Source: Roseovarius sp.
GTDB taxonomy: Bacteria > Pseudomonadota > Alphaproteobacteria > Rhodobacterales > Rhodobacteraceae
DNA: 64,000 bases
Reading direction: 5' to 3'
Assembly: GCA_014359765.1 (NCBI GenBank)
Contig: JACIYT010000001.1
Coordinates: forward strand, 351,448 to 415,447
A program made the translations under genes and the position numbers. The notes under the pieces were generated by a model that saw only the letters and a program-made list of their open reading frames with translations, ran no database searches and had not been told where the DNA came from. Shown here piece by piece: positions 44,499-48,135 of this stretch (position 1 is its first letter; the number at the start of each line of letters is the position of its first letter).

Positions 44499-44606
44499 GA
44501 TGCGATTCCCCTGATGCGCAGGATGGGCAGATAGGGTAGTGGAAATGCCGGGGGCTTCAAGCTATTGTGGGTCTCTGGGCCGATTATCCCGCGCAAGGAC
44601 CTGCCG

Positions 44607-47600
44607 ATGACCCGTTTCGCCACCCCGATCGCCGAACAGATCTGGAACATGAAATACCGCCTGCACGATGCCGATGGCACCCCCGTCGATGCCAGTGTCG
44701 AGGATAGCTGGCGGCGCATCGCGCGGGCGCTGGCGGCGGTCGAGGCGGAGCCGGCGCAATGGGAGGACCGTTTTTACGCCGCGCTCGAGGATTTCAGGTT
44801 CCTGCCGGCGGGGCGGATCACGGCGGGGGCGGGCACCGCGCGCAAGGTCACGCTCTTCAACTGCTTTGTCATGGGCACGATTCCCGATGACATGGGCGGC
44901 ATTTTCGACGCCCTGCGCGAGGCCGCGCTGACCATGCAGCAGGGCGGGGGCATCGGCTATGATTTCTCGACGATCCGGCCGAGGGGCGCCCCGGTCAGGG
45001 GCGTTTCGGCGGATGCGAGCGGGCCGCTTTCCTTCATGGACGTGTGGGATGCGATGTGCCGCACGATCATGAGCGCGGGCAGTCGGCGCGGCGCGATGAT
45101 GGCCACGATGCGCTGCGACCATCCCGATATCGAGGATTTCATCGCAGCCAAGTCCGATCCGGGGCGGCTGCGGATGTTCAACCTCTCGGTGCTGGTCACG
45201 GATGCCTTCATGGCGGCGGTCAGGGCCGATGGGCCCTGGGAGCTGCAATTCGGCGGCAAGGTCTATCACACGCTGCCCGCGCGTGACCTGTGGAACCGGA
45301 TCATGCAGGCCACCTATGACTATGCCGAGCCGGGGGTGATCTTCATCGACCGGATCAACCAGGCCAACAACCTCGCCTATTGCGAGGAAATCGCGGCGAC
45401 CAATCCGTGCGTCACTGCCGAGACATGGATCACGACCGAGGACGGCGCGCGACAGGTGCGCGACCTGATCGGTCGCCCGTTCCGGGCCCTGGTCGATGGC
45501 AAGGCTTTCGACACCGGGCCCGACGGGTTCTTTGCCACCGGGGTAAAGCCCGTGCTGCGGCTCTTGACCACGTGCGGGCGCAGCTTGCGGCTGACGGCCG
45601 ATCACCCGGTGCGGAAGGTGACGCAGAAAACACGCTGGCGGCTCGAGAGCGACTGGGTCGCGGCGGGCGACCTGCGCCCCGGCGACGAGGTCATGCTGCA
45701 CGATCATCGGTCCGCGGTGCCGGTGGCGCAGCCCGGTGATGCGCGCGGCTATCTGCTGGGCCTGCTGATCGGTGACGGGGTGATCCGCGCCGACAAGACG
45801 CTGATATCGGTCTGGCCCCGGGCCGCCTGTGGCAATGGCGCGCCGCTGCCCAACCCGGTCATGGCGCATGTCGAGGCGCTTTTGCGCAGCCTGCCGCACC
45901 GCGCCGATTTCGCCGGATGGCAGGAGGTGGCGGGAAGGGGAGAATATCGGATCGGCACCGCCGCCCTGACCGCGCTGGCGCGGGAGTACGGGCTGGGGCC
46001 GGGAAACAAGACCCTGACCCCCGAAATCGAGGCCGCCGCGCCCGGATTTTGTGCTGCCGTGCTGCGCGGGCTGTTCGACGCTGACGGGTCGGTGCAGGGC
46101 ACGCAGGACAAGGGTGTTTCGGTGCGCCTTGCCCAGAGCGACGCAGCCCTCCTCGAGGCGGCGCAGCGGATGCTGGCCCGGCTTGGCGTGCAATCCACCC
46201 TCTACCGCGACCGCCGCGCAGCGGGCGAGAGCATCCTGCCGGACGGCAAGAGGGGGCTGCGCGCCTATCCGACCCGTGCGCAGCACGAATTGGTGATTTC
46301 CGGAGACAACCTGCCGGTCTATGCCGACAGGGTCGGCTTTGGCGATCCGGAAAAGGCGCGGCGGCTGGAGGTCGCGATCGGCGGCTATCGCCGTGCGCTC
46401 AACCGCGAGCGGTTCACGGCGGTCGTGGCCGAAGTGGCCGAGGATGGCGAGGCCGAGGTCTTCGACGTGTCGGTGCCCGGAATTAATGCCTTCGATGCCA
46501 ATGGGTTTTATGTGCATAATTGCGGCGAGCAGCCACTGCCGCCCTACGGCGCCTGCCTGCTGGGTTCGATCAACCTGGCAAAGCTGGTGATAGACCCGTT
46601 CGGGCCGCGCGCGCGGCTCGATGCGGCGGCGCTCAAGGCGCTGGTGCCGGTGGCGGTGCGGATGATGGACAACGTGATCGACGTGTCGGGCTTTCCGCTG
46701 CCGCAGCAGGCGGCCGAAGCGCGGGCCAAGCGGCGCATCGGGCTGGGTGTCACCGGGCTTGCCGATGTTCTGGCGATGGTGGGGCTGCGCTATGGCGAGG
46801 AGAAGGCGGTGCGTCAGACCGAAATCTGGATGCACAAGATCGCCGTGGCGGCCTATCTGGCGAGCACCGAACTGGCGCGGGAAAAGGGGGCGTTTCCGCT
46901 CTTTGACGCGGAAAAATTCCTCGCCTCCGGCACGATGGAGGGCATGGATGAGAGCGTGCGCGCGGCGGTGGCGCGGCATGGCATCCGCAACGCCCTGCTG
47001 ACCAGCGTCGCACCCACGGGCACGATCAGCCTCTATGCCGGCAATGTCAGCAGCGGGATCGAGCCGGTCTTTGCCCATGCCTATACGCGCAAGGTGCTGC
47101 AACCCGACGGATCGCGCAGCGAGGAGGAGGTGGTCGATTACGCCGTCGCCCTGTGGCGCGACAAGATGGGCGATGCGCCCCTGCCCGAGTGGTTCGTGAC
47201 GGCGCAGGACCTTGCCCCCGAGGCGCATGTGAAGATGCAGGCGGCGGCGCAGAAATGGGTCGATTCCTCGATCTCCAAGACGATCAACTGCCCGGCGGAC
47301 ATCTCCTTCGAGGCGTTCAAGGACGTTTACATGCAGGCCTGGGAGGCGGGCTGCAAGGGATGCACCACCTATCGGCCCAATGACGTGACCGGCAGCGTTC
47401 TGAGCGTGAGCGAGAGCGCCGACAAGGTGCCCGGCGAGGGGGCTGTGACGGGGCAGGGGGGCGAGGTGATCTACATGGCCGAGCCGCTCGACCGGCCGAC
47501 GGAACTGGAGGGCGCGACCTACAAGCTGAAATGGCCTGACAGCAATCACGCGATCTATGTCACCGTGAACGATATCGTTCTGAACGGGCACAGGCGGCCC

Positions 47601-47993
47601 TTCGAGGTGTTCATCAACTCCAAGAACATGGAGCATTACGCCTGGACGGTGGCGCTCACGCGGATGATCTCGGCGGTGTTCCGGCGCGGCGGCGACGTGT
47701 CCTTCGTGGTGGAGGAGCTCAAGGCCGTGTTCGACCCGCGGGGCGGGGCCTGGATGGGCGGCAAATACGTGCCCTCGATCCTCGCCGCCATCGGCGGCGT
47801 GCTCGAGCGGCACATGGTCGCCATCGGGTTTCTGGAGGGCGAGGGGATGGGCCTCAAGGAGGACCCGCAGGCGCAGGGCGTGGGGGCCGAGGCGCCCCGC
47901 GGCCCGGCCTGCCCGGCCTGCGGCAGCCATGACATGCGCATGATCGAGGGCTGCATGACCTGCGCCAGCTGCGGCCACAGCAAATGCGCATGA
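44607..47993 (+). CDS. nrdJ: B12-dependent (class II) ribonucleotide reductase with intein
   Basis: Reduces ribonucleotides to deoxyribonucleotides using adenosylcobalamin to make a protein thiyl radical. The ATG at 44607 (MTRFATPIAEQI) has AAGGA 7 nt upstream. The 1128-aa precursor is one open frame: N-extein (1-267), a 371-aa intein (268-638) and C-extein (639-1128), giving a 757-aa mature enzyme. Redox and radical cysteines match those known in NrdJ: C86 in LFNCFV, C639 in the rebuilt NPCGEQPLPPYGAC motif, and C650 at its end. The C-terminal tail CPACGSHD...CMTCASCGHSKC is cysteine-rich, as needed for re-reduction. No cobalamin riboswitch is seen in the short upstream region. Confidence 0.96.
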   Translation: MTRFATPIAEQIWNMKYRLHDADGTPVDASVEDSWRRIARALAAVEAEPAQWEDRFYAALEDFRFLPAGRITAGAGTARKVTLFNCFVMGTIPDDMGGIFDALREAALTMQQGGGIGYDFSTIRPRGAPVRGVSADASGPLSFMDVWDAMCRTIMSAGSRRGAMMATMRCDHPDIEDFIAAKSDPGRLRMFNLSVLVTDAFMAAVRADGPWELQFGGKVYHTLPARDLWNRIMQATYDYAEPGVIFIDRINQANNLAYCEEIAATNPCVTAETWITTEDGARQVRDLIGRPFRALVDGKAFDTGPDGFFATGVKPVLRLLTTCGRSLRLTADHPVRKVTQKTRWRLESDWVAAGDLRPGDEVMLHDHRSAVPVAQPGDARGYLLGLLIGDGVIRADKTLISVWPRAACGNGAPLPNPVMAHVEALLRSLPHRADFAGWQEVAGRGEYRIGTAALTALAREYGLGPGNKTLTPEIEAAAPGFCAAVLRGLFDADGSVQGTQDKGVSVRLAQSDAALLEAAQRMLARLGVQSTLYRDRRAAGESILPDGKRGLRAYPTRAQHELVISGDNLPVYADRVGFGDPEKARRLEVAIGGYRRALNRERFTAVVAEVAEDGEAEVFDVSVPGINAFDANGFYVHNCGEQPLPPYGACLLGSINLAKLVIDPFGPRARLDAAALKALVPVAVRMMDNVIDVSGFPLPQQAAEARAKRRIGLGVTGLADVLAMVGLRYGEEKAVRQTEIWMHKIAVAAYLASTELAREKGAFPLFDAEKFLASGTMEGMDESVRAAVARHGIRNALLTSVAPTGTISLYAGNVSSGIEPVFAHAYTRKVLQPDGSRSEEEVVDYAVALWRDKMGDAPLPEWFVTAQDLAPEAHVKMQAAAQKWVDSSISKTINCPADISFEAFKDVYMQAWEAGCKGCTTYRPNDVTGSVLSVSESADKVPGEGAVTGQGGEVIYMAEPLDRPTELEGATYKLKWPDSNHAIYVTVNDIVLNGHRRPFEVFINSKNMEHYAWTVALTRMISAVFRRGGDVSFVVEELKAVFDPRGGAWMGGKYVPSILAAIGGVLERHMVAIGFLEGEGMGLKEDPQAQGVGAEAPRGPACPACGSHDMRMIEGCMTCASCGHSKCA
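45408..46520 (+). mobile_element. Intein with LAGLIDADG homing endonuclease, inserted at NP|CGEQ of NrdJ
   Basis: A 371-aa in-frame insert. Splicing residues are all present: Cys1 (CVTAETWITTEDG), the block-B T63-A-D-H66 motif in LTADHP, penultimate His370 and Asn371 in GFYVHN, and Cys+1 of the host. Block F reads VFDVSVPGINAFDANGFYVHN. The endonuclease has two dodecapeptide motifs, YLLGLLIGDG (Asp123) and LRGLFDADG (Asp226), both with the catalytic acid, so it looks active. The insertion lies exactly before the predicted radical cysteine, so unspliced enzyme should be dead. RNR genes are known intein hosts. Confidence 0.95.
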
Positions 47994-48015
47994 GCGGGCA
48001 GGCCGCCCCGCCCGT

Positions 48016-48135
48016 TCAGAGGATCGCCATCGCCGACAGAACGAAAGCGGCGATAATCGCGCCATAGACGATCGCCACCGCCCCCCAGGAGGCAGAGCGC
48101 ATGCGCAGTTCGCGGTTGAGCTCGTCGCGGGTCAT
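48016..48135 (-). CDS. 39-aa single-pass membrane peptide
   Basis: Too short for the ORF track. ATG 48135 is preceded by AAGGAGG with good spacing. The peptide starts MTRDELNRELRMRSASW, a charged cytoplasmic-looking segment, then one hydrophobic helix GAVAIVYGAIIAAFVLSAMAIL to the C-terminus. The strong ribosome site and clean charged/hydrophobic split support it as a real gene. It faces nrdJ tail to tail with 22 bp between stops. Function unknown. Confidence 0.7.
   Translation of the reverse strand: MTRDELNRELRMRSASWGAVAIVYGAIIAAFVLSAMAIL

Follow-up and report, generated by a model that had tools for sequence, protein, structure and literature searches.

A predicted class 1 intein harbouring a LAGLIDADG homing endonuclease at the radical cysteine of a class II ribonucleotide reductase in Roseovarius sp.

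The 64,000-nucleotide stretch of Roseovarius sp. DNA analysed here (the window) carries nrdJ on its forward strand (44607..47993), a gene encoding a short-form class II ribonucleotide reductase (RNR) that is interrupted by a predicted intein. The gene starts with an ATG at 44607, with an AAGGA sequence 7 bases upstream, and ends with a stop codon at 47991-47993; the frame is open throughout and encodes a precursor of 1128 aa, from which a spliced enzyme of 757 aa is predicted. The host protein was matched by the NrdJ model TIGR02504 (573 bits, cut-off 400) and also by PF02867, PF00317, and TSCPD, and its assignment to class II is based on the family model and on residues corresponding to N320, C322, E324, and the C134/C333 pair (1xje numbering). 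The N-extein (267 codons, 44607..45407, + strand) has AATNP as its last residues, and the C-extein (490 codons, 46521..47990, + strand) begins with CGEQPLPPYGAC and ends in a cysteine-rich tail. The absence of NrdB from the genome is consistent with a dependence of the predicted NrdJ on adenosylcobalamin. An open frame of 1167 aa was also observed on the opposite strand (44562-48065, - strand); such a frame is typical of high-G+C coding DNA and showed no sign of being a gene.

The predicted intein occupies 45408..46520 on the + strand (1113 bp), in frame with nrdJ, and encodes 371 aa (CVTAETW...FYVHN), and is supported by empty sites in relatives, by homologues, and by an AlphaFold model. The full set of class 1 splicing residues was found: Cys1, the first splicing nucleophile (TGC, 45408..45410); block B, T63-A-D-H66, with its TxxH pattern (45594..45605); Asp353 of block F (46464..46466); His370-Asn371 of block G, the C-terminal cleavage residues (46515..46520); and Cys+1, the second nucleophile (TGC, 46521..46523), all on the + strand. 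C1, T63, H66, D353, H370, and N371 are invariant in 56 inteins located at the same site. The model of the intein C-terminal region, TIGR01443, scored above its cut-off. Two others fell slightly below theirs: TIGR01445, for the N-terminal splicing region (21.8 bits, cut-off 24.5), and PF14890 (34.8 bits, cut-off 35.8). The AlphaFold model, built from 30 homologues, had a mean pLDDT of 86.6 and a pTM of 0.87, with low confidence across the last ~11 residues of the intein. The best PDB matches of the predicted fold were inteins containing homing endonucleases, namely TliVMA (E = 3.7e-17), PI-PfuI (1.1e-14), and PI-SceI (3.4e-13), the matches to these three spanning 4e-17 to 6e-13. No further intein was found in the same genome with TIGR01443 or PF14528.

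Within the intein lies an endonuclease that the sequence-only reading had not mentioned. PF14528 (LAGLIDADG_3) scored 81 bits on the insert (cut-off 22.5), and two LAGLIDADG motifs with their acidic residues were found, in addition to the fold match: GYLLGLLIGDG (residues 114-124, 45747..45779, + strand), whose D123 is kept in 98% of the homologues, and LRGLFDADGS (residues 219-228, 46062..46091, + strand), whose D224 and D226 are likewise kept in 98%. In the pairs involving the window, dN/dS was 0.13-0.27 for the intein and 0.14-0.30 for the extein, and values of 0.1-0.36 were obtained for the splicing part and the endonuclease part alike, which indicates that both parts are maintained by selection. 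In Roseateles chitinivorans (L077:5001-5834), the same intein occurs naturally in a 278-aa version that has lost the endonuclease motifs but kept the splicing residues.

The insertion bond was placed on a known structure by means of an empty-site relative (L004, 90% identical), in which N-P-C-G-E aligned with N320-P321-C322-G323-E324 of the Thermotoga maritima NrdJ (1xje), and the partner cysteines aligned with C134 and C333. Since C322 of the T. maritima enzyme is its thiyl-radical cysteine, Cys+1 of the intein is the radical cysteine of the Roseovarius NrdJ, as had been proposed from the letters of the DNA. The other elements of that proposal, a 371-codon in-frame insert at 45408-46520 with Cys1, TADH, HN, and Cys+1 in an open frame and protein lengths of 1128, 757, and 371 aa, proved to be exact. 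Inteins generally lie close to active sites, at a mean of 8.3 Å (PMC3359363), and in the R2 protein of A. aeolicus, another RNR subunit, an intein splits the catalytic residues (PMC8772380).

The distribution of the insert was then established among 85 genomes of the genus. Six carry the intein. In 73 others, whose NrdJ is ~80-90% identical to that of the window, the empty site could be read directly, every one as TNPCGEQPLPPYG, with TNPCGEQPLPP unbroken; the search for empty sites in relatives that had been suggested at the outset thus bore out the identification of the insert as an intein, along with the same-site homologues and the matches to the intein and LAGLIDADG models. An uninterrupted match spans the site in three further genomes (G038, G053, and G063), and the short NrdJ was not seen in G041, G056, and G057. 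In four genomes (G001:C2, G065:C11, G079:C11, and G082:C1), a second short nrdJ copy, 56-60% identical and interrupted by stops, was observed with an intact copy elsewhere in the same genome; these copies look like decaying paralogues.

The phylogenies of the two parts of the gene were compared. On the extein tree, the eight carriers (the six genus genomes, a Sediminimonas, and a Rhodobacteraceae MAG) require seven changes, compared with a mean of 7.8 for shuffled labels. The intein tree paired L080 with L082 (support 97), whereas the extein tree grouped L080 with the empty alleles L009 and L014 (99) and L082 with the empty alleles L086 and L088 (100). A single intein clade containing the window, L078, L081, and L080, picked after the pairwise identities had been seen, was rejected (p-AU 0.018). 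This conflict and the scatter of the carriers would fit transfer and repeated loss, and, taken with the purifying selection on the endonuclease, would also fit a homing element. No co-conversion tract was visible, DNA identity near the site being not clearly higher in pairs of occupied alleles than in occupied-empty pairs. A foreign base composition was considered and rejected, as the G+C content of the intein (0.689) is close to that of the extein (0.665). The lack of a tract and the host-like G+C content suggest that the present copies, and any homing at this site, are not very recent.

Beyond the genus, a tblastn search with residues 1-371 returned 54 loci (38-85% identity) from records assigned to Pseudomonadota, Bacteroidota, Bacillota, Deinococcota, Gemmatimonadota, and Heimdallarchaeota, and all 54 homologous inteins from these genome contigs interrupt RNR genes at the same NP/C bond (the slash marks the insertion point). 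On viral contigs, 43 of the 45 loci examined are at NP/C. Two viral-contig loci, L165 and L177, carry homologous inteins one residue later, at NPC/C, so that a single catalytic motif has two adjoining insertion points. In another viral-contig locus, L184, a frameshift or a sequencing error has broken the intein frame between the RNR parts, and the frame that was read contains 16 stops. Plasmid carriers gave only two matches, both distant, and phage records only distant matches (24-28%). Two other records stood out. Sideroxydans WB-IL-08 (L063:1487-2710) has a 408-aa version in which an extra stretch of ~28 aa, GGHARSLSPNSLPQAGERDAVSLREYLVD, immediately precedes the last splicing block; this stretch looks like a translated repeat element. 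A nearly identical intein is found in records of different phyla, a Chitinophaga pinensis MAG (L033) and Malikia spinosa (L052), for which a misplaced contig is a more likely explanation than transfer.

The rir1-b allele of ribonucleotide reductase has been described from 15 halobacterial and 55 bacterial sequences, including those of Acidovorax sp. NO-1 and CF316 and of Thermococcus kodakarensis (PMC4071816); a text search of that report found neither Roseovarius nor Alphaproteobacterium. The inteins of Acidovorax sp. NO-1 (L044) and CF316 (L047), tied to rir1-b by organism rather than by one-to-one matching of protein accessions, are 56% identical to that of the window, lie at the same NP/C bond, and possess the splicing residues and a LAGLIDADG domain, but are 380 aa long instead of 371 aa. 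By its insertion bond between NP and the radical cysteine and by its full-length homology, the window intein matches this already described, widespread allele and is a member of it. The closest copies, in the nrdJ genes of Sediminimonas LH_M13 (L026), R. autotrophicus (L029/L078), and R. pacificus (L025/L079), are 80-84% identical, with the same site and length and no difference of substance. The bnrdE intein of the SPbeta prophage (NC_001884) occupies an equivalent bond, directly before the radical-cysteine equivalent (SNL/CVTGE...VTGN/CSEV), but it resides in a class Ib NrdE, has 385 aa, carries Gly in place of His before the terminal Asn, and is only 24% identical over 301 aa. PI-PfuI (1dq3), TliVMA (7qsu), and PI-SceI (1vde) resemble the predicted overall fold, a splicing domain with a LAGLIDADG endonuclease, but are 12-15% identical and belong to other host genes or sites.

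The sequence-only reading had also raised the possibility that splicing is essential for growth, should the genome encode no other RNR, and had pointed to nrdAB and nrdDG as the genes to look for. Neither NrdB (PF00268) nor NrdD (PF13597) was detected in the genome, whose assembly is 97% complete. A PF02867 search nevertheless found two genes, the nrdJ of the window and a second one on contig C39 (G000:C39:90632-94285), which rules out the window NrdJ as the sole RNR. The second NrdJ (L002, L136) is a full-length, intein-free, long-form class II enzyme (NF005736, 2214.8 bits, cut-off 1737), and its NPCSE site is intact, SNPCSEYMF being uninterrupted. The long NrdJ scored above the family cut-off in 80 of the 85 genus genomes and is present in pieces in G029, G038, and G056, so that 83 of 85 have it at least in part; it was not seen in G053 (66% complete) and G072 (72% complete). 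In G029 (G029:C2:697499-701174; 99% complete), the long gene appears split over two overlapping frames, by a frameshift or a sequencing error. G057, which is 99% complete, has the long NrdJ only and lacks the intein-bearing type. Because a second, intein-free NrdJ is encoded, splicing is probably not essential for growth, and the proposal of essentiality does not hold in the form given.

We consider it highly probable (about 95%) that the insert, which lies at the rir1-b site of a class II RNR, is an intein of class 1 that harbours a LAGLIDADG homing endonuclease and that splices and homes as a selfish element. After translation, an N-S shift would activate the Pro-Cys1 bond, as the invariant residues suggest; the N-extein would then be taken over by Cys+1, Asn371 would cyclise with the aid of His370, and the exteins would join; in the mature enzyme of 757 aa, Cys+1 would then serve as the radical cysteine. 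It is reasonable to expect, as first proposed, that the precursor is inactive before splicing. The endonuclease would be expected to cut intein-free nrdJ around the conserved ACCAAYCC/TGCGGCGA and so to let the intein spread. The intein may be retained because catalytic residues are encoded at its site and any imprecise loss would destroy the enzyme.

A different role, that of a co-opted post-translational switch in which the redox or metal state gates splicing and hence the short NrdJ, appears improbable. Cys1 and Cys+1 are both oxidisable, the insertion site places the catalytic thiol within the splicing reaction, conditional splicing of other inteins, such as that of mycobacterial DnaB, is described in PMC6195587 and PMC7360933, and an off-state could be covered by the second NrdJ. 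However, the intein is scattered, and its presence in so few genomes of the genus is unlike what a needed regulator would show; it is equally doubtful that redox- or stress-gated splicing sets the amount of the short NrdJ beside the long one. Slightly less probable still is a degenerate intein that splices poorly in an nrdJ drifting towards a pseudogene and tolerated thanks to the second NrdJ. The redundant enzyme encoded on C39, the lack of the short NrdJ in one near-complete genome, and the degraded second copies in four others would agree with such a drift, but the splicing and catalytic residues are all intact, the 1128 codons are open, and the dN/dS ratios are low. Finally, that the 371-aa segment is a normal NrdJ domain can be dismissed: nothing was found in favour of this reading, the 73 empty relatives lack the segment at the exact bond, and both its fold and its model matches are those of inteins and LAGLIDADG proteins.

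Of the two genes for class II RNRs in this Roseovarius, one thus appears to be occupied by a selfish element, the intein with its homing endonuclease, for which a regulatory role seems improbable. The element leaves the present knowledge of inteins and RNRs unchanged, and the claim of splicing-dependent growth falls with the second NrdJ. It does provide a clear example of a catalytic residue that doubles as a splicing nucleophile, with close empty and occupied alleles, and the six occupied and at least 73 empty sites, the full-length endonuclease, and the endonuclease-degenerate form of Roseateles chitinivorans together would make a handy set for studies of intein gain and loss.
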